Shown here in pieces: positions 6,085 through 16,170 of a stretch of DNA of 64,000 bases. The stretch spans positions 1 through 64,000 of the forward strand of contig NZ_LIQR01000054.1 of assembly GCF_001418575.1 (NCBI RefSeq). The letters run 5' to 3'. Positions within the stretch are counted from its first letter, which is position 1. Every line of letters begins with the position of its first letter. A program made the translations under genes and the position numbers. A model generated the notes under the pieces. That model had not been told where the DNA came from. It was given only the letters and a program-made list of their open reading frames with translations, and did not search any database. Origin of the DNA: Peterkaempfera griseoplana. GTDB taxonomy: Bacteria > Actinomycetota > Actinomycetes > Streptomycetales > Streptomycetaceae.

Positions 6085-6933
6085 TCAGGCCCTCAGCCAG
6101 GGCCGCCGATCCCGCGCGTGACCGTAGACGACCGTTACCCTCCCCGGTGCCAGCACCGCGGGAAGCGCTCCGAACCAGGCGTCAGCCCGGCTCCCGTCGA
6201 TGACCGCCACGACCGGCGAAGTCGAGCCCCCACGGATCGAGCGTGCCCCCACCACAGCCAACACGGGCCGCACCTCCACCGCGAACGGGCATAGCCGCGA
6301 CAGCAGCCGGGTCGCCCTCTCAGCCTCAAACAAGCTGTTCCGCACATAGTGATCGTTTCGGCCGTTCACCGTCACCGCCCGGTCGCCGACCCACACCGAG
6401 GCCCCGCGATGGTGCTTGGTGTTCACCACGAACACCCCGCCGGGACCGATCAACAGGTGGTCGAGGTCCGAGCCATTGGACAGCTCGATCGAGTGCAACG
6501 CCTGCCACCCGGCCGCCTCCAATCTCTTGAGCCGAGAGCCGACGATCCGCTCGCCCTTGAGGCCGACTTCCCACCGGGCCAACTCGTGTTGCCGCTTGCT
6601 GTGTCGAGCCATCCATCGCTTGACCCTGCTTGGCTCCAGGGTCTGGATCTGCCGTCGTAGAGCATCACCGGCCCGGACCGTGGCCAGGTCGTCAGCGGCA
6701 GCCGGAACGATTGGCGCCTCCCACGGCCCCAACTCACCTGCTCGAGAGGTCGATCCGCAGACCAGGTATGGCGCCAACGCCTCCAGCGCTGCATCCCGGT
6801 ACCCGTCGAGCACCGGCACCAGGCGTCCCGCCTTGCCGTCGTACCAAGCGACCGTCACGTCATCGGCCACCCGGTTGACGTACAAGCGATCCTGCCCCCG
6901 TCGGCGCCACGACTTCACTCGCAGCTCGTCCAC
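6085..6933 (-). CDS. NERD-domain protein (nuclease-related)
   Basis: About 282 aa from a GTG at 6933 (a longer reading starts at 7005). The C-terminal half fits the NERD domain: GERIVGSRLKRLEAAGW, then SDLDHLLIGPGGVFVVNTKH and WVGDRAVTVNGR. NERD resembles PD-(D/E)XK nuclease folds, with the D in DLDHLLIG and the K in VNTKH at the expected places. The N-terminal part is a beta-rich region of unknown role (LYVNRVADDVTVAWYDGK). It ends 2 bp from the Nudix stop, so the two genes converge. NERD proteins are frequent on actinomycete mobile elements. Substrate unknown. Confidence 0.8.
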   Translation of the reverse strand: MDELRVKSWRRRGQDRLYVNRVADDVTVAWYDGKAGRLVPVLDGYRDAALEALAPYLVCGSTSRAGELGPWEAPIVPAAADDLATVRAGDALRRQIQTLEPSRVKRWMARHSKRQHELARWEVGLKGERIVGSRLKRLEAAGWQALHSIELSNGSDLDHLLIGPGGVFVVNTKHHRGASVWVGDRAVTVNGRNDHYVRNSLFEAERATRLLSRLCPFAVEVRPVLAVVGARSIRGGSTSPVVAVIDGSRADAWFGALPAVLAPGRVTVVYGHARDRRPWLRA

Positions 6934-7077
6934 GCGACCACCCCCAGCAGCGCTCGACAACGACCCAGGGGAGCACAGCCCCGAGCAGCCGACAAGAGCG
7001 CCCATTCACACCGAACCACCCGAGCGATGCACCAGAAGGGAGGAGAGCGAGAGGGGGAGGAGAGGAGATGCGTAAAA

Positions 7078-7682: not shown

Positions 7683-9011
7683 GTGGTGAGCTACCATCTT
7701 GTGCATGCATGTGTCCCGGACCAGGCTCTCCTCGACGTTCGTGGGGCCGAACTACCGAGCAGCCGCTCTGCCGCAGGACCGGTGAGCGCGCGCGATAGGC
7801 GCTGGACAGTCGTAGATCTGTTCAGCGGAGCCGGAGGGATGAGTTGGGGGTTTCACGCCCACTCGTCGTTTCGTGTCGCAGCGGCGGTCGATGCACAAAG
7901 GAGCAAGCCGAGCCGTAGCACGCTCGCCTGCAACGAAACTTATCAGCGAAATATAGGGGTTGAACCCCTCACTTACGATCTTGCAGATGTGAGTCCGGAG
8001 GAGCTGCAGCAGGCCATCCGGCGAGCAGGACACCTGCGCCGACCGAAGATACTGCTTGCCTGCCCTCCGTGCACTGGATTCACTCGCACCCTGCCGAAGA
8101 ATCATAGTGAGGACGATCCCCGAAACGGGCTTGTAGGGAGGGTTGCGGATTTCGCCGCAATGCTCAATCCCGAGATTATCATCGTTGAGAACGCCCGGGA
8201 GCTTATTCGTGGAGCGTTCCGCACCCACTCGGAAGAGCTCATAGGAAAGCTCGAATCAATGGGCTACACTGCTCATTCTGCGGTCTATCGCCTTGACAAG
8301 TTCGGACTTCCACAGCGACGCGAGCGCGCGATCATTATTGCTGTGGCCGCCGGCCTACCCCTTAAGACGCTGGAAGACCTTTGGTCCGGCTGGAAGGTCG
8401 ATCCAAAGGCAATCACGGTGCGCCGGGCGATCTGGGATCTCCCCGAGCTCGAGGCAGGACAGGCTCATCCCTCGGATTCCTCTCACGTCAGCAGCAGACT
8501 CACCCCGGAAGTGCTTGAGCGCATCCGAGCCATCCCCACGGATGGCGGCTCTTGGATCAGCCTGTTCAGTAGCGCGGAGACGGAGAAACTGGCTACCCCT
8601 GCCATGAGGAGCTCGTTTGATGCTGGGCGGACCAACCACTTCAGCGATGTCTATGGCCGTATGGCGTGGGACTCTCCAGCACCGGTCATTAAACGCGAGT
8701 GCAGCCACGTCGGTAACGGCCGATACAGTCACCCTCAACAGGATCGCTTGTGCACCGTGAGAGAGCTAGCACTCCTCCAAGGATTCCCGGCTAATTACGA
8801 CTTCGATGGGGCAAGCCGGCAGAACGCCTACCGTCATGTGGGCGACGCCGTCCCCCCAATGATTAGCCATCAGCTGGCGTGGGTTTGCCACTGGATACTT
8901 GGGGGAGCACGCCCGAAACCGGAGCAGTTTGTACTTCGGGGCACGACGCTGAGGCCTCAGGACATACTCAGTCATCACGCCACTAAGGTGGAGCAAGGCA
9001 AGGGCTCTTGA
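7683..9011 (+). CDS. DNA (cytosine-5) methyltransferase
   Basis: Up to 442 aa with the ordered C5-methyltransferase motifs: I (VVDLFSGAGG), IV with the catalytic cysteine (PPCTGFTRT, C130 counted from 7683), VI (ENAREL), VIII (LPQRRERAIIIA), IX (RELALLQGFP) and X (GDAVPP). It should transfer methyl from S-adenosylmethionine to C5 of cytosine in a specific DNA site. Motif IV is PPCTG rather than PPCQ, and motif VI is ENA rather than ENV, as in some divergent members. The start is uncertain: GTG at 7683, or GTG at 7782 with AGGA upstream, just before motif I. It is 12 bp upstream of the dual ATPase gene, so the two are probably one operon. GC is lower than in the flanking DNA. Confidence 0.9.
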   Translation: MVSYHLVHACVPDQALLDVRGAELPSSRSAAGPVSARDRRWTVVDLFSGAGGMSWGFHAHSSFRVAAAVDAQRSKPSRSTLACNETYQRNIGVEPLTYDLADVSPEELQQAIRRAGHLRRPKILLACPPCTGFTRTLPKNHSEDDPRNGLVGRVADFAAMLNPEIIIVENARELIRGAFRTHSEELIGKLESMGYTAHSAVYRLDKFGLPQRRERAIIIAVAAGLPLKTLEDLWSGWKVDPKAITVRRAIWDLPELEAGQAHPSDSSHVSSRLTPEVLERIRAIPTDGGSWISLFSSAETEKLATPAMRSSFDAGRTNHFSDVYGRMAWDSPAPVIKRECSHVGNGRYSHPQQDRLCTVRELALLQGFPANYDFDGASRQNAYRHVGDAVPPMISHQLAWVCHWILGGARPKPEQFVLRGTTLRPQDILSHHATKVEQGKGS

Positions 9012-9023
9012 TGTCAAAGTAAA

Positions 9024-12000
9024 GTGGGGAAGCCGGAACTATACGGAGGTCCGACTGCTGTGGCTACATTCAAAGCTCGCGCTCGCGCAGTCGATATGCT
9101 CGGCCGCCAGCAGATCGCGGGTATCCCTACGGCCATCAACGAGCTCTTCAAGAATGCGCACGACGCATACGCGGAGAACGTGATCGGTGATTACTTTCGC
9201 GAGGACAGACTCCTCGTGATCCGCGATGACGGCTTCGGCATGACCTATGGCGACTTCATCGACAAATGGCTGGTTGTTGGAACTGAGAGCAAGGTGAACG
9301 CCGGGGCTGCTCCGCCCGTGGATTCGAAGAGCGCACGTCCTGTCCTTGGCGAAAAAGGGATTGGGCGCCTGGCAGTCGCTGCGGTAGGACCTCAAGTTCT
9401 TGTCCTATCCCGCAATGCCCAAGATGTCGCTCTCACGTTCGCGCTTGTCAATTGGACATTGTTCACTGCTCCGGGCATCGATCTCGAGGACGTTGAGATC
9501 CCGACTCTACGAATCCCAATCGGTGAACTTCCTGGCCAAGAAGAAGTGCGTCATCTTGCGGAGGGTATACTTCGCAACCTGGAGGCACTAGAGGGACGGA
9601 TAACGCCCCAGGTCGCCCAGACCGTTCGGGAAGAAATCTCCGCACTCTACAACCTGGATCCTGCTCATCTCACGCAGCGAATGGCGGGTCCGACTCTTAG
9701 GGAAGTACCGGGAACCCAATTTTGGATTACCCCAACCGATGAGATGTTGGCCTACGACATCTCTGGCAGTCCAAATGATGAAAACGAGGCATCCCCGCTC
9801 TTTAGAACGCTCATCGGATTTAGCGATACGCTAGTGCCGGGGAATCCCGCGCCTCCGATGGCGGCACACTTCTATGATCACCGATCTAAGGACCTGGTCT
9901 ATGATGTGATTGGCGATGGAGAGTTTTTCACTCCGCAAGACTTCCAACTCGCAGATCACCAGATCCTCGGTTATTTTGATGAGTACGGGCAATTCTCCGG
10001 CAAGGTTTCGGTCTACGGCAGGGACCCAGTAAAGCATGTCGTTGCCTGGCCGGGGTCTCGAGGTAAGCCTACGCTTTGCGGCCCCTTCAAACTTAACCTT
10101 GCATACGTGCAAGGAAATAGGAGTCAGTCTCGTTTGGGTGACGAGGACTTCAATCGGCTGGCGCGGAAGCTTGCCCGAGTAGGAGGCCTGTACGTCTACA
10201 GGGACAGAGTTCGCATGCTTCCCTACGGGCGAAGCGACTTTGACTGGCTCGATATCGAGCGAGAACGTAGTAAGAGCGCATCCGACTACTTCTGGTCGTA
10301 CCGCCGCATGTTTGGCGTTGTGGGGATTGATAGTACCGCCAACTTCCGTTTGCAAGAGAAAGCGGGACGGGAGGGATTCCGGGCTAATGCTGCTTATCGC
10401 GAGTTCCGGGACATGCTTCAGAACTTCCTTGTTCAGACGGCAAGAGATTTCTTCCGCGAAGATAGTGCTGACGAATCCTGGCGAATCACTAGGAGGGAAC
10501 TAGAGCGCGAAGCCGATGCCCGGCGTCGGCACGACAAGCAGACCCGTAAACGCAGGGCAGACTTTCGCCAAGAATTGTTGGGGGCAGAGAAAAGGCTCAG
10601 CCAGGGAGTCCCTGAGGAACACGTCGGCAGCATCCTGCGCGACCTCGAGTCTGATCTCGCAGACGCAGTTTCCGACCTGGATTCAGCGCGAGCGGCACAA
10701 AAGGTGATCGCAGCCGAGGCTCGCGCACAACGAGCAGTCAATGAAGTTCGCGTGAGGTTTCGGGTCAGCCGACCTCGTGGCGTGGCTCTTCCGAGGGGCC
10801 TCGCACAGGACTGGGACAATTATCAGCGTGAGTTCGAAGCAATGGAGCGTTCGCTCCTAGAGCACACGCGTACGGAGATTGAGAGGCGCAGTTCTACGGC
10901 AGCCAAACGTCTGGGCTCTGCTCTAGATAGGCGGAGGCGTTTCGAAGCTGGAATTCAGGGCCGTATCTCGGACGCGCAAACTGCCTTGGGGCGGCGATCC
11001 CGCGAGGTTGTCGAGCGTTCAGAAGAGCTGCAGAAGGTGATTGTTCAGCAGGCCAACGAGTGTCGCAGAAAGCTCGAAGAGCAAACTCGACTCGTTCAGC
11101 TCGACATGGCTAGTACGAGCACTGATGAGCTGACTGATCAAGACGCAGCTGATCTCCGCAGGGCGCTGGAAGATCGCATCGATGGCGCCATGACGCAACA
11201 AGTGCAGCAGCTGGATGCTCTGCTAGAACGCATGGATTTGACTTTCGGCGCCCAGCCGGAGAGCTCAGCCGGCGATGTCCTTGACGTCATCGGTAGCTTG
11301 GAACAGGAAGTCGTGACGCTCAAGGACCGCGCAGATGACGATCTCGAGCTGGCGCAGCTCGGGCTGGCGTTGCAGGTCATCAACCATGAATTCTCTTCGA
11401 GCATTCGCTCGGTACGCACTAACCTAAGAAGACTGCGCTCTTGGGCAGATGCGAACAGGGCATTGCGTCCGGTTTACTCGGATCTGCGTGCCAGCTTCGA
11501 GCATCTTGACGCATACCTAAGGCTTTTTACCCCACTGAATAGGCGCCTCTACAGGCGCGACACAATCATGAAGGGGGCTGATGTCGAACGCTTCCTTGTC
11601 GACCTATTTCGAGAGCGAATCTTGCAAGAGAGTATCAGTTTGGAGGCCACCCCCGAGTTCCGAAACGCTAGGGTTAGGGCTTACCCTTCGACGCTTTACC
11701 CGGTTTTCGTCAATTTGGTCGACAATGCCATCTACTGGCTCACGACTCGAAGTGCACCACGCGTAGTTCGATTGCATCACAGCGAGCGGGAGTGGATCGT
11801 CGAGGACAACGGTCCGGGTGTTCCTACGGTTGATCAACCAAGAATATTTGAACTTGGGTTCTCGCGAAAGCCAAACGGCCGAGGGATGGGGCTGCATATC
11901 AGCAGAGACGTGCTCCGGAAGGAAGGATGGTCGTTGTCCCTTTCCACTTCACCGTTGGGGGGCGCGAGGTTCACGCTACAAGAGCCGGACGAAGGCGTGA

Positions 12001-12059
12001 ACGTAGCGGCAGACGATCAGCGCATCGCGGACATGTTGGCACTTGAATTGGATACCTAG
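9024..12059 (+). CDS. dual GHKL ATPase: MutL/MORC-like N-terminus, coiled coil, histidine-kinase-like C-terminus
   Basis: 1011 aa. The N-terminal GHKL ATPase has an N-box INELFKNAHDAY (N44), DDGFGM (68-73) and a lid GEKGIGRLA (109-117), as in MutL, Hsp90 and MORC proteins. A beta-rich region follows, then a long charged coiled coil (about residues 490-760). The C-terminus carries INHEFSSSIRSV with H788 in an H-box-like position, an N-box NLVDNAIYWL (N901), VEDNGPG (D928) and GRGMGLHI, a full histidine-kinase ATPase. So one chain has two ATP-binding sites of different type. No membrane segment is visible, so it is cytoplasmic. With a methyltransferase before it and a receiver-domain protein after it, I infer an intracellular sensor/transducer in a defence module. 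MORC-like ATPases linked to methyltransferases are known; this double architecture I do not recognise as a described system. Confidence 0.85.
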   Translation: MGKPELYGGPTAVATFKARARAVDMLGRQQIAGIPTAINELFKNAHDAYAENVIGDYFREDRLLVIRDDGFGMTYGDFIDKWLVVGTESKVNAGAAPPVDSKSARPVLGEKGIGRLAVAAVGPQVLVLSRNAQDVALTFALVNWTLFTAPGIDLEDVEIPTLRIPIGELPGQEEVRHLAEGILRNLEALEGRITPQVAQTVREEISALYNLDPAHLTQRMAGPTLREVPGTQFWITPTDEMLAYDISGSPNDENEASPLFRTLIGFSDTLVPGNPAPPMAAHFYDHRSKDLVYDVIGDGEFFTPQDFQLADHQILGYFDEYGQFSGKVSVYGRDPVKHVVAWPGSRGKPTLCGPFKLNLAYVQGNRSQSRLGDEDFNRLARKLARVGGLYVYRDRVRMLPYGRSDFDWLDIERERSKSASDYFWSYRRMFGVVGIDSTANFRLQEKAGREGFRANAAYREFRDMLQNFLVQTARDFFREDSADESWRITRRELEREADARRRHDKQTRKRRADFRQELLGAEKRLSQGVPEEHVGSILRDLESDLADAVSDLDSARAAQKVIAAEARAQRAVNEVRVRFRVSRPRGVALPRGLAQDWDNYQREFEAMERSLLEHTRTEIERRSSTAAKRLGSALDRRRRFEAGIQGRISDAQTALGRRSREVVERSEELQKVIVQQANECRRKLEEQTRLVQLDMASTSTDELTDQDAADLRRALEDRIDGAMTQQVQQLDALLERMDLTFGAQPESSAGDVLDVIGSLEQEVVTLKDRADDDLELAQLGLALQVINHEFSSSIRSVRTNLRRLRSWADANRALRPVYSDLRASFEHLDAYLRLFTPLNRRLYRRDTIMKGADVERFLVDLFRERILQESISLEATPEFRNARVRAYPSTLYPVFVNLVDNAIYWLTTRSAPRVVRLHHSEREWIVEDNGPGVPTVDQPRIFELGFSRKPNGRGMGLHISRDVLRKEGWSLSLSTSPLGGARFTLQEPDEGVNVAADDQRIADMLALELDT

Positions 12060-12132: not shown

Positions 12133-13842
12133 GTGCAGATGGCAGCAGGTGGGATGTCGTCTTCAGCACACCCCGTGGATTCAGCACGTGATTACGCGGA
12201 TCTGTGTATGCGCGCGGCCCAGGAATTCATTCACACGATCGTTGTTGTGGATGACCGCGCGACCTACGGAGAGCTCGAAGCTATTACATCGCTCGTTGAG
12301 CCCGGAGCAGTGATTGCGGCCGAAGATTCCTTTGATGAGCCAGCTGGTATTGCTCCCGGCGGCGCATCTCTAAACGTTGCAGTACTGACCGACGCAAGCG
12401 CGGACATCGGTCTTACCTGTGCAGTTCTTCGGCCGCGCGAGGAGGAGCAGCGTGATGGCACGCTGCACAGACGACTGGTTCGGGCGGCTCGAAGGGCCGA
12501 TGTCCTTGTGCTGGACTGGCAGCTGAACGACGAATCAGATGGACAGGCGGCGCTTCGGCTGCTGAGCGACGTAGCTCAAGAGGATAAGCGAGGTCAAGGG
12601 CGTCTTCGACTTGTCTGCTTCTACACGAGCCATCCCGATTTGGACGGCGTGTTCGGTGCGGTTGAACGTCACCTCGGCGAAGCGGTTCTAAGTTCTTCTG
12701 GGCCCGGCCAAGCCTATCGCTGGATTGACTGTGGCTGCATGCGAATTGTCGTGTTTGCGAAGGCCGGCGGTATCACCGCAGACATTGCTGTGCCGGCGAT
12801 CGCATTGGAGGAGGACGAGCTACCGCAGAAGTTGGTCGAAGAGTTCGCCTCACTGACCTCGGGCTTGGTGAGTAATGTGGCAGTTGCCTCACTCGCGGCT
12901 GTCAGGGCAGATGCGCACCGATTGTTGACAAGATTTGGTTCGAGTTTGGATGAGCCTTTCCTGTCTCATCGTTTCTATGAAGGTGGCCCGGAAAGCGAGG
13001 AGCTGGTTGTTCGTCTAGTAGCCGACGAGATCAAGTCTCTCCTTGATAGCGCGGACGTGAGGCGGTGGATAGAGCCTACCGCAATAAGGCATTGGGCCCA
13101 GCGGTATCTTCCTGATCAGATCAAGTTGAAGCCCAAGAAGGGTGAGAGAATTCTCTCAAAGGTGGAGCTGGTAAAGGTCCTTGAGGGCGGCGCGTACTAT
13201 GGCTCCGCAGAAGTAACCAACCAAGTCAATACCGGAAATAAGTTCGATCTCGGTAAAGAATACAAGGATTCCGTTACTGAGATTCTGATTAATGAGGGTG
13301 GTGACGCTGAGCGGCTGGACTATGAGTTCGCACGCCTGACATGCCTGGCTCGCAATGACTCCTCCCCATTCCCGGGCGATAGGTCTCCAATCCTCACTGA
13401 AGGATCGATCGTCAGGGGAAGGAATGGGCAGCAGGTGATCTACCTCCTGTGCTCAATGCCGCTATGTGACACCGTGCGAGTGGGGGCGCCGAGAGCCTTT
13501 CCATTTGTGCCGCTTAAGGTTGTCACGTCCGCTGACCGATACAACCTTGTAGCTTTGAGTCCCGAAGGTGGTCAACTGCATCTAGCCTTCGCGCCGAGTA
13601 ATCACTACGATATTGTTCGTCACACTTTCGCAGGGGATCCTGGCGGAGTTGTTCGGTCCCGTAGGAGAAAGGTCCGGGATCGGGAGCAGTTTGTTTTCTT
13701 TGATGTTGATGAAAAGCCTTGGATATGGGTGGCTGAGCTTCGTTTCCAGCATGCGCATCGGAAGTTGAATGAACTTGGGGCAGCTTCCAGCCGAGTCGGA
13801 CTTGATGAAGCGCACATCCTTCGAAACGCTGGTCGGCGCTGA
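12133..13842 (+). CDS. receiver-domain protein with large C-terminal domain of unknown function
   Basis: 569 aa. The N-terminal ~220 residues read as an enlarged response-regulator receiver: acidic pair D40/D41 (VVVDDRA), phospho-acceptor D128 (VLVLDWQL), switch T165 (CFYTSHP) and conserved K210 (VVFAKAG). All four functional positions are kept, so it could accept phosphate from the upstream kinase-like protein. The remaining ~350 residues have no DNA-binding domain that I recognise and are mixed alpha/beta, with KPKKGERILSK near residue 335. The GTG at 12133 follows AGGAGAGC; the ATG at 12139 is an alternative. It lies 73 bp after the ATPase and converges with the HNH gene 3 bp downstream. 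Likely the response partner of the ATPase; its output is unknown. Confidence 0.75.
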   Translation: MQMAAGGMSSSAHPVDSARDYADLCMRAAQEFIHTIVVVDDRATYGELEAITSLVEPGAVIAAEDSFDEPAGIAPGGASLNVAVLTDASADIGLTCAVLRPREEEQRDGTLHRRLVRAARRADVLVLDWQLNDESDGQAALRLLSDVAQEDKRGQGRLRLVCFYTSHPDLDGVFGAVERHLGEAVLSSSGPGQAYRWIDCGCMRIVVFAKAGGITADIAVPAIALEEDELPQKLVEEFASLTSGLVSNVAVASLAAVRADAHRLLTRFGSSLDEPFLSHRFYEGGPESEELVVRLVADEIKSLLDSADVRRWIEPTAIRHWAQRYLPDQIKLKPKKGERILSKVELVKVLEGGAYYGSAEVTNQVNTGNKFDLGKEYKDSVTEILINEGGDAERLDYEFARLTCLARNDSSPFPGDRSPILTEGSIVRGRNGQQVIYLLCSMPLCDTVRVGAPRAFPFVPLKVVTSADRYNLVALSPEGGQLHLAFAPSNHYDIVRHTFAGDPGGVVRSRRRKVRDREQFVFFDVDEKPWIWVAELRFQHAHRKLNELGAASSRVGLDEAHILRNAGRR

Positions 13843-13845
13843 TCG

Positions 13846-14839
13846 TCAATCGCTCTGGGTTGCGCTCTGAATCGCCGCTCGAAGCTCCAGTGGCGTAGGC
13901 CAGGGAGCGCGCCGATGAATCATGCGGTGACAGTTAGAACAGATGAGAGCGAGGTCTGCCAGCTTAGTGGCGCCCTCGCCAGCCACGTGGAGGGGGACGA
14001 TGTGGTGGCACTCGATGTAGCCAACGCCGCGTTCCCCGTACGCCTGCTCGAAGTTGAAGTTGCAGACCTCACAGGCCAGGCTGAGCCCCTTTCGAAGCAC
14101 AGCCTCGATCTTCTTGTGTCGCAGCCCCCGATTGCGCTCGCGAGCGACGTGCCGGCTTAGGAGCAAGCGACCTTCTGGAGCTTCGTAGTCGTCCAGTTCT
14201 TCGTCCGAGAGTAGAGTCTGCCAGGGAGTCGTCAGCTATTCCAGCCCGTATGAGCTGGGCTGCCGCTGCCATATCCAAGGGCCTTTCGATGAATGCCTGG
14301 ATCACCTTGAGGTCGGTGGCTCCGCAGTTAGTGGATTTTCCCTGATAGTCGGGATGGTTCGACATGAGATCGTAGGTCTTGCGCTCAACACCATTCGGGT
14401 TGCGGAACTTCTCGTTGCGTGATTCGGGTTCGTGGAAGGGGAGCAGCTGCAGCAGAGCCGAGAGTTCAACTGCTCGCGGGTCTTCGGCAGCGATGCCCTT
14501 CCAATCGTTCTCGACAGTGACGGCGCAAGCAAGCACCACTTCGTCCCATGTCCAAGCCGGGTTCCGCACGGATATGACCCGGAAGCCCATACGTTCCAGC
14601 CATGCGACAGCTGCCGCCTTGCCACCGTACAGCTGGTCGTGTGTCAGAGCCTCCCCGTACTCGTACTTGTGCGCAACTCCGGCGATCGCCTTGGAGTCGT
14701 ATCGCAGCCCATCGTGCACCAGCACGTAGCCCAGAGATCGGCCATAGTGGTAGGTCTTCCGGAACTCCTCTGGACCCAGTCGGTCGTACTCCTCGATCGC
14801 CGCCAATACCGCCTCACGGCTAAAGATCCCCTTCTTCAT
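13846..14839 (-). pseudogene. McrA-like HNH endonuclease, frameshifted near 14200-14238
   Basis: The N-terminal frame (14839 down to about 14235) matches the head region of ScoMcrA-like proteins: FSREAVLAAIEEYDRLG, LVHDGLRYDSKAIAGVAH, then RNPNGV. The other frame picks up as LLSDEELDDYEAPEGRLL and runs into an HNH domain: CEVCNFNFEQAYG, GYIECHHIVPLH, LALICSNCHRMIH. Catalytic histidines and zinc-type cysteines are complete, so only one indel separates two sound halves of a ~330-aa enzyme. Relatives are type IV restriction enzymes that cut modified DNA. It points towards the methyltransferase operon and ends 3 bp from it. If the indel is a sequence error, this is the nuclease of the module; otherwise the HNH half (106 aa from 14166) may survive alone. 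Confidence 0.75.
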
Positions 14840-15161: not shown

Positions 15162-15353
15162 TTGAACCCGAACCCCACCTGTTGCTTCTGCTACGAGGTC
15201 ATCGATCTTGACCAGGACGGGGCAGCGACCGAGCTCAGGCTCGGTGCTGTTAACCCGGCGCGAGGCGATAGCGTGCGGCAGAAGGCCTACTCACACTCAA
15301 GCTGTCTGCGCGAGCGAGTCCACTCGAACATCGAGCTCTGGTGGGAGTTCTGA
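15162..15353 (+). CDS. small protein with CxxC and HxxC zinc-type motif
   Basis: 63 codons from a TTG at 15162 with GAGAGGG upstream. CCFCYEVIDLD near the start and AYSHSSCLRERVH near the end give a CxxC...HxxC set, which would make a small zinc ribbon. Short proteins with this pattern and an H-x-x-C-L-R ending are common in streptomycetes, function unknown. It lies inside the IS5-like element ahead of the transposase, so it is either a passenger or a captured gene end. Confidence 0.5.
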   Translation: MNPNPTCCFCYEVIDLDQDGAATELRLGAVNPARGDSVRQKAYSHSSCLRERVHSNIELWWEF

Positions 15354-15411
15354 GACGGAGCTGACCTTCACGGCTGCCGATCACGGGTGCGGTGATCTCG
15401 GAGTGCCTGGT

Positions 15412-16170
15412 GTGATCACGGCGTCGGAGCCGTCCTGGATAGCCCCGTTCACCGGGCTGAGCCCGCGCGACTTCCGCAAGCTGATGACGGCCCTCCGCCA
15501 CGAAGGCGCCGACACCGTGCGGCCCGGCCGGCCGTGGAGCCTTCCCTTCGAAGACCGGGTTCTGCTGGTAGCGGCTTACTGGCGCACCAACCTGACACTG
15601 CGGCAGCTCGCTCCGCTGTTCGGCGTGTCCAAGTCAGCGGCCGACCGAATCATCGACCACATCGGCCCGCTGCTCGCACTCAAGCCCCGCAGGCGGTTCC
15701 GCAAGGACACCGTGCTGATCGTCGACGGCACCCTGGTGCCCACACGCGACCACAGCATCGCCGAGCAGTCCAAGAACTACCGGTACTCGACCAACCACCA
15801 GGTCGTCATCGATGCCGACACCCGGCTGGTCGTGGCTATCGGACGCCCGGTGCCCGGCCACCGGCACGACAGCAAAGCGTGGGAGGAGTCCGGGGCCAAG
15901 GCCGCGGTCGGCAGGATCACCACGATCGCTGACGGCGGCTACCTGGGCACGGGCCTGATCATCCCGCACCGCCGCCCGCCCGGTGGCGAACTCGTTCAGT
16001 GGAAGCAGGAACACAACCACTCCCACAAGCAGGTCCGCGCCCGTGTCGAGCATGTCTTCGCCCGCATGAAGACTTGGAAGATTCTGCGTGACTGTCGGCT
16101 CCAGGGCGATGGCGTCCACCACGCCATGCTCGGCATCGCCCGCCTGCACAACCTCCTGCAGGCCGCGTAA
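15412..16170 (+). CDS. IS5-family transposase (DDE)
   Basis: 252 aa from a GTG at 15412, the point where the family begins (VITASEPSWIAPFTGLS). Order: helix-turn-helix LTLRQLAPLFGVSKSAAD, then the DDE core with LIVDGTLVPT (D1), TTIADGGYLG (D2), and RARVEHVFARMK (E). The set of catalytic residues is complete, so the enzyme may be active. Confidence 0.88.
   Translation: MITASEPSWIAPFTGLSPRDFRKLMTALRHEGADTVRPGRPWSLPFEDRVLLVAAYWRTNLTLRQLAPLFGVSKSAADRIIDHIGPLLALKPRRRFRKDTVLIVDGTLVPTRDHSIAEQSKNYRYSTNHQVVIDADTRLVVAIGRPVPGHRHDSKAWEESGAKAAVGRITTIADGGYLGTGLIIPHRRPPGGELVQWKQEHNHSHKQVRARVEHVFARMKTWKILRDCRLQGDGVHHAMLGIARLHNLLQAA

Follow-up and report, generated by a model that had tools for sequence, protein, structure and literature searches.

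Several described systems resemble the gene set analyzed here. The closest one is the HEF_HK/Response_reg_2 pair (Bellieny-Rabelo et al. 2021, PMC8011034). In that article, the combination of HATPase_c_3, HEF_HK, and HATPase_c domains is present in 174 of 222 proteins, one GHKL domain or the other is missing from some homologs (34 and 11 of the 222), and HEF_HK is linked to Response_reg_2 in 91.6%. The article already reports an upstream C5-methylase, a link to paraMORC ATPases, and an over-representation of restriction-modification domains within ten genes of HEF_HK systems, and the authors proposed a cytoplasmic two-component system which controls restriction-modification and whose N-terminal domain perhaps senses NTP. 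No experimental or functional work on this system was found in the literature searched. Restriction-modification operons are also where paraMORC ATPases are found (Iyer et al. 2008, PMC2292703), and some of these ATPases are fused to HEPN RNases (PMC3710099); MORC2 is a DNA clamp (PMC12216690). In addition, an anti-phage role has been validated for VcSduA (Shedu type I-D, formerly paraMORC3; PMC12137116).

We analyzed a window of 64,000 nucleotides (the whole stretch of Peterkaempfera griseoplana DNA under study), in which three genes on the forward strand form the set of interest. They encode a Dcm-type C5-cytosine DNA methyltransferase (positions 7683–9011, 442 aa; Pfam DNA_methylase, E = 5.5e-42; TIGR00675), a double-GHKL soluble histidine kinase of HEF_HK family group 1 (9024–12059, 1011 aa), and its partner, a Response_reg_2 response-regulator protein (12133–13842, 569 aa; Pfam PF19192, E = 6.6e-29, 101.8 bits vs. 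a cutoff of 27), whose gene starts 73 bases 3' of the kinase gene. Group 1 of the HEF_HK/Response_reg_2 family agrees with the window in domain order, soluble kinase, adjacent Response_reg_2, upstream C5-methylase, and frequent Vsr; we found no essential difference, and the window set is a further actinobacterial member of this group. The two-ATPase architecture, in which the earlier note on this DNA had seen a potentially new way to couple DNA recognition to phosphotransfer, was published in 2021 (PMC8011034) and was dropped as a novelty. What is new here is the fixed gene set without a recurring restriction enzyme, a second version of it (type 2), and an output domain common to both; the available text of PMC8011034 mentions neither the S5/MORC-like module nor the common output domain nor the short type-2 version.

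Comparison with the other systems revealed both shared and distinct features. Like the window kinase, paraMORC/MORC proteins (PMC2292703) begin with a GHKL+S5 module whose ATPase motifs are intact, and they adjoin a cytosine methylase, sometimes with Vsr. However, they lack a histidine-kinase core and their partners are helicases and nucleases, whereas the partner of the window kinase is a receiver protein. In VcSduA, a GHKL-clamp N-terminal domain likewise controls a C-terminal output, but this output is a fused PD-(D/E)xK nuclease (PMC12137116), whereas that of the window set is a predicted phosphorelay.

The GC content of the window is 0.55–0.60 at about 7.7–15 kb, compared with 0.66–0.73 outside, and the host genome is GC-rich. 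This low-GC island holds the methylase/kinase/regulator set together with an HNH gene, and the fall in GC content indicates that it is acquired DNA. At a Streptomyces griseus locus (L005), the three genes were found at 68–69% nucleotide identity and several flanking segments also match; a search for the insertion site with the island-flanking DNA gave multicopy or scattered matches. The HNH gene (13846–14839, reverse strand; PADLOC mREase_IV, E = 3.3e-21) converges on the regulator gene at a distance of 3 bases, has the low GC content of the island, and resembles type-IV methyl-directed restriction enzymes. A frameshift separates its N-terminal part from the HNH part, which lies in another frame. 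Since this gene is absent from the other loci, it was rejected as a member, and its belonging to the set is doubtful.

The methylase has its catalytic Cys130 within a PPC motif as well as the ENA, QRRER, and GDAV motifs, and the PC and EN motifs are kept in 25 of 26 neighboring methylases. As regards a Type II restriction-modification system, the C5-methyltransferase motifs are thus in place; for a dedicated cognate endonuclease, the 27 loci compared below gave no recurring nuclease besides Vsr, and the window has one interrupted HNH gene that those loci lack.

The kinase ORF (9024–12059) has a GTG start and no internal stop. Its first GHKL ATPase domain (residues ~13–145, positions 9060–9458) carries E40, N44, D68xGxG, and G109EKGxG; HATPase_c_3 was detected at residues 36–136 (Pfam, E = 8.9e-12), and the domain matches HtpG by profile (E = 6.9e-5). 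It is followed by an S5/transducer-like region (residues ~146–477, positions 9459–10454), a coiled coil (residues ~484–775, positions 10473–11348; helices in the model), a DHp (HEF_HK) domain (11349–11543) with the phospho-acceptor H788 (codon 11385–11387), and a second GHKL domain, which is a histidine-kinase CA domain (residues ~845–990, positions 11556–11993). HEF_HK was found at residues 778–844 (Pfam, E = 1.1e-27; 96.8 bits vs. a cutoff of 24.1) and HATPase_c at residues 889–986 (Pfam, E = 4.1e-16), so that all three domains of the group 1 architecture score above the Pfam curated cutoffs and well outside what chance would give. When a profile of 14 kinase homologs was compared with PDB, HtpG chains matched at 40–128 and histidine-kinase chains matched too, the best being 3a0r (755–980, E = 2.9e-14).

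Multiple alignment of 26 full-length homologs revealed that E40, N44, D68, G70, G72, K111, G112, and G114 of the N-terminal GHKL domain are invariant, and so are H788, E789, N897, N901, G952, G954, and G956 in the C-terminal half. Position 928 is D in 17 homologs and N in 9. As these residues and those of the regulator (see below) are invariant or largely kept, the ATP sites of both domains and the phosphorelay residues are under selection. The S5/transducer-like region has a K446-A-G-R449-E-G451 loop, in which K446, R449, E450, and G451 are invariant in the 26 homologs and K446, R449, and G451 keep their partners in the distant type-2 kinase in a profile alignment; by analogy, this loop may be likened to the catalytic-loop arginine of Hsp90. 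A hidden nuclease within the kinase was considered and rejected, since in searches against Pfam, NCBIfam, and PADLOC the only nucleases matched were BbrUII/HgiDII-type enzymes, and these only in their GHKL part. Nor was a DNA-specificity domain recognized in the kinase sequence.

An AlphaFold2 model of the kinase was built as a monomer (mean pLDDT 75, pTM 0.51), in which the low pTM makes the relative placement of the domains unreliable. Model residues 19–477 align over 329 residues with the mouse MORC3 ATPase (Z = 18.4, rmsd 4.3) and also with Hsp90/TRAP1, and Foldseek gave further matches to MORC2-DNA and SMCHD1. Model residues 784–990 align with HK853 (Z = 18.6, 204 residues, rmsd 5.5) and further histidine kinases (Z = 18–19), and the second GHKL domain reaches Z values of up to 19.8 with histidine-kinase CA domains. 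H788 lies within helix 752–810, which is followed by helix 812–833 in a two-helix DHp arrangement, and it occupies the phospho-acceptor place of HK853, with a low pLDDT (about 40) around it. Since the Pfam, profile, and model matches agree, the kinase contains two different GHKL modules. Judging from the model, the N-terminal GHKL+S5 module is paraMORC-like, an assignment looser than MORC proper.

These results bear out much of the earlier note, which had read the protein as joining a GHKL domain of MORC/Hsp90 type to one of histidine-kinase type. Both folds appear in the monomer model, both domains are matched in Pfam, and their motifs are kept in the 26 homologs; the residues it had listed are all present (N44, D68-D69-G-F-G-M73, G109-EKGIG, H788, N901, D928, and G952-RGMGL). 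The coiled coil of ~270 residues that it placed between the domains corresponds to residues 484–775, H788 falls in the two-helix arrangement described above, and the receiver partner with D128 is the protein encoded next to the kinase. Neither of the two outcomes which that note had named as counting against it was observed in the monomer model.

The receiver domain of the regulator (residues 30–215, positions 12220–12777) has D40, D123, D128 (codon 12514–12516), T165, and K210. The three aspartates are present in 27/27 regulators and T165 in 24/27, and position 210 is Lys in 22/27 and Arg in 3. In the regulator model, which is of medium confidence (pLDDT 69), the fold of this domain resembles that of PorX and other receivers (Z = 11). 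The sequence and fold hallmarks of a two-component system are therefore present, namely a His in a two-helix DHp beside a CA domain and the D-D, D, T, and K residues of the receiver.

To place the set in a wider context, we examined 27 loci with a strong HEF_HK match. The regulator gene is directly 3' of the kinase gene on the same strand in 27/27, in most cases with an overlap or a gap of no more than about 10 bases. A methylase is present within 2.5 kb at 25 loci, or 26 if L012 is counted, where an insertion has split the kinase gene and the methylase lies upstream of it; at L046 it was not found. The methylase linkage is looser than that between kinase and regulator, with side and strand changing at L008, L049, and L050. 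The distances of kinase, regulator, and methylase correlate (r = 0.89, 0.67, and 0.59, with shared descent left in). Clustering of 225 neighboring ORFs gave one widespread cluster, the Vsr repair endonuclease (11/27 loci), the next largest being methylases (4 loci). Similarly, Pfam and PADLOC scans of 111 flanking proteins gave Vsr 11 times, transposases 4 times, and then singletons, and no recurring restriction endonuclease was found among the 25 commonest families of these proteins. Unrelated, fast-evolving restriction enzymes at single loci could be missed by such a homology census. The recurrence of Vsr fits a methylase which truly modifies the genome.

The distribution of HEF_HK is sparse: the host genome has 1 copy, and matches were found in 3/394 genomes of its family and 4/396 of its phylum, in 14/398 genomes of the phylum of a Gilliamella locus, and in 1/194 of the phylum of a Victivallales locus, these counts including some weak matches that represent unrelated sensor kinases. 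Three weakly matching loci were rejected as members, L044 and L045 being ordinary sensor kinases and L047 having no kinase match in the census. No copies were detected in 50,697 phage records, a few occur on viral contigs, and a near-identity DNA search of E. coli genomes gave none.

When the regulator C-terminal domain was used as a profile against 349 genomes, the expected regulators were recovered along with two loci that scored less well, L114 and L116 (E = 6.6e-4 and 3.8e-3). Both are surrounded by a C5-methylase, a kinase of 723–724 aa, and a regulator of 353–362 aa, in the same order as in type 1. The kinase of this type-2 set matches both HATPase_c_3 and HATPase_c with E values around 1e-17 to 1e-19, has a short coil, and lacks a strong HEF_HK match, and the regulator has a canonical receiver of the PF00072 type. 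Profile comparison aligned 676 columns of the type-1 and type-2 kinases (E = 1e-60), with all motif residues matched. The output domains aligned over 133 columns (hhalign probability 90%, E = 2e-6), and controls with reversed or shuffled columns (40 shuffles) gave a probability of at most 0.5%. On the strength of these alignments, the two receiver families have a homologous C-terminal output domain, and the kinase and output domain have stayed linked on both sides of a deep divergence, with a change of coil and receiver subtype. The type-2 set thus resembles the window in its three functions, whole-length kinase homology, homologous output domain, and Vsr at one locus, but differs from it in the short coil, the absence of a strong HEF_HK match, the PF00072 receiver, and its presence on plasmids.

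The type-2 set, with all three genes, occurs in Pseudomonadota genomes and on plasmids. Relatives of it were found in further genomes and in 48 plasmid records (41 from Campylobacter). Three of the plasmid records were inspected; the kinase and the next gene are present in all three, the methylase in two, and Vsr in one of these two. This short version, represented by L117, L118, and L124–L126 with a double-GHKL kinase of 720–730 aa, is common on Campylobacter conjugative plasmids; its kinase and regulator carry no annotation more specific than "sensor histidine kinase" and "response regulator." A third arrangement was observed at L043 (6591–11578), where a methylase is accompanied by a 745-aa double-GHKL kinase, which matches HEF_HK weakly, and by a 400-aa receiver-like protein lacking a recognized output barrel.

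The type-2 kinases also bear on the idea of the earlier note that an SMC/MORC-like clamp would gate the kinase, taken here to mean an SMC-like clamp whose long coil would relay DNA recognition to it. This idea differs from the NTP sensing suggested in PMC8011034. The coil is present in all 26 type-1 kinases aligned and the N-terminal fold is MORC-like. On the other hand, conservation within the kinase is lowest in the coil (mean 0.35 vs. 0.52–0.68 elsewhere), which also accounts for most gaps in the type-1/type-2 profile alignment. Because the type-2 kinase is homologous along its whole length without most of the coil, the design does not depend on this element. The MORC-like fold stands, the coil as essential coupler is weakened, and we regard an SMC-like mechanism as improbable; the coil may instead set the reach or geometry of the kinase.

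The C-terminal output domain of the regulator (residues ~416–556, positions 13378–13800) is a beta-barrel, in which G424, C445, and D446 are present in 27/27 regulators and C440 in 26/27. It matches no Pfam or NCBIfam family and only at chance level PDB sequences, has no recognized enzymatic motif, and a structure search of the regulator against a viral library gave nothing below E = 0.001. One possibility is that it is an active MazF-type ribonuclease which causes abortive infection. In the medium-confidence model, residues 418–556 resemble MazF-mt3 (Z = 8.1 over 99 residues, at an rmsd of 2.9) as well as other MazF-type barrels (Z = 7.7–8.1), and the paraMORC-HEPN fusions offer a precedent for pairing paraMORC with an RNase (PMC3710099). 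Foldseek matched several MazF chains with a probability of 0.97–0.98, yet with E values of 0.05–0.15, and a Z near 8 can reflect a common barrel arrangement. Moreover, profile comparison revealed no similarity to PemK/MazF (hhalign E = 0.86 and 0.16), none of 15 regulators matched PF02452 even at a permissive E of 5, and the sequences place the invariant C-D pair in a loop after the second strand rather than where MazF has its catalytic Arg/Thr. MazF homology was rejected at the profile level, and we give the ribonuclease only a small chance of being right. We consider the output domain to be a barrel of unassigned role with an invariant C-D pair, MazF-like in its modeled fold only. A HEPN domain in the middle region of the regulator was also rejected; R258-x3-H262 is present, but the His is found in only 16/27 regulators, and the spacing differs from that of HEPN.

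Considering these data, the gene set is probably a methylation-linked signaling or immune system. We propose, as a reading that falls just short of an even chance, that methylase, clamp-kinase, and regulator form one functional set in which the state of DNA is passed through a phosphorelay to an output domain that takes the place of a restriction enzyme. The methylase would mark the DNA of the cell itself. The kinase would be a dimeric, ATP-driven clamp of MORC/Hsp90 type fused to a histidine-kinase core, closing with ATP on DNA whose state is "wrong," probably because it lacks methylation or is foreign in some other way (cf. MORC2, PMC12216690). Closure would change the DHp bundle and lead to autophosphorylation of H788, the phosphate would pass to D128 of the regulator, and this would switch the C-terminal output domain, most simply a growth-arresting or RNA/DNA-damaging effector. 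We infer the DNA ligand and its recognition by the kinase, the methylation dependence, the phosphotransfer, the signal direction, and the nature of the output. This reading is favored by the intact motifs and both modeled folds, the fixed gene set with its correlated distances and recurrent Vsr, the homology of kinases and output domains between the two types, and the MORC2 and paraMORC precedents. It is weakened by the lack of a recognized DNA-specificity domain in the kinase and of an enzymatic motif in the output domain, by the looser methylase linkage, and by those published homologs that have lost a GHKL domain.

It is also conceivable that kinase and regulator are a two-component system tuning the methylase and nearby restriction genes, with nucleotide levels sensed by the N-terminal domain. 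This is close to what the authors of PMC8011034 proposed; the enrichment of restriction-modification domains within ten genes is in its favor, and a receiver-based output is typically regulatory. However, Pfam and NCBIfam searches found no DNA-binding output domain in the regulator, which has a conserved barrel with the invariant C-D pair instead; no recurring restriction gene to be regulated is present within 2.5 kb; and the N-terminal module comprises a complete GHKL+S5 unit, as in MORC/Hsp90, rather than a bare nucleotide-binding domain. We therefore rate this alternative as unlikely. Between immunity and housekeeping regulation, the census favors the former, since it gave Vsr repeatedly but no recurring restriction enzyme. 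More tentatively, the sets may represent a methylation-linked immune family in which a phosphorelay from a MORC-like clamp-kinase replaces the restriction enzyme, with an undescribed G...C-D barrel effector and at least two deeply diverged versions, of which one is carried by conjugative plasmids.

If the proposed phosphorelay is true, DNA recognition would be coupled to phosphotransfer and not directly to cleavage, i.e., a signaling replacement for restriction. The HEF_HK/Response_reg_2 pair, published without a functional assignment, would gain a testable job, and the C-D output barrel common to the two versions would be a named part to test. It would also connect a bacterial kinase with DNA clamps of the MORC type, and clamp closure could be read as phosphorylation. 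A likeness exists to Detocs, a two-component phage defense with a kinase and a response regulator that has an effector domain. Detocs is not known to have a C5-methylase or an N-terminal MORC-like GHKL domain.

Several additional observations were made at individual loci. In the window, a gene for a NERD nuclease-related domain protein (6085–7005, reverse strand; Pfam, E = 1.1e-15) lies on the 5' side of the methylase gene, beyond the low-GC part, and an IS5-type transposase gene (15208–16170, forward strand), similar sequences of which are multicopy in relatives, lies beside the island. The insertion which splits the kinase gene at L012 (4256–9025, a Verrucomicrobiae genome) carries a 475-aa ORF with no Pfam match. 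At L010 (14672–16281, reverse strand), a second methylase followed by a truncated N-terminal fragment of the kinase was found near the intact set, which suggests a decaying duplicate.
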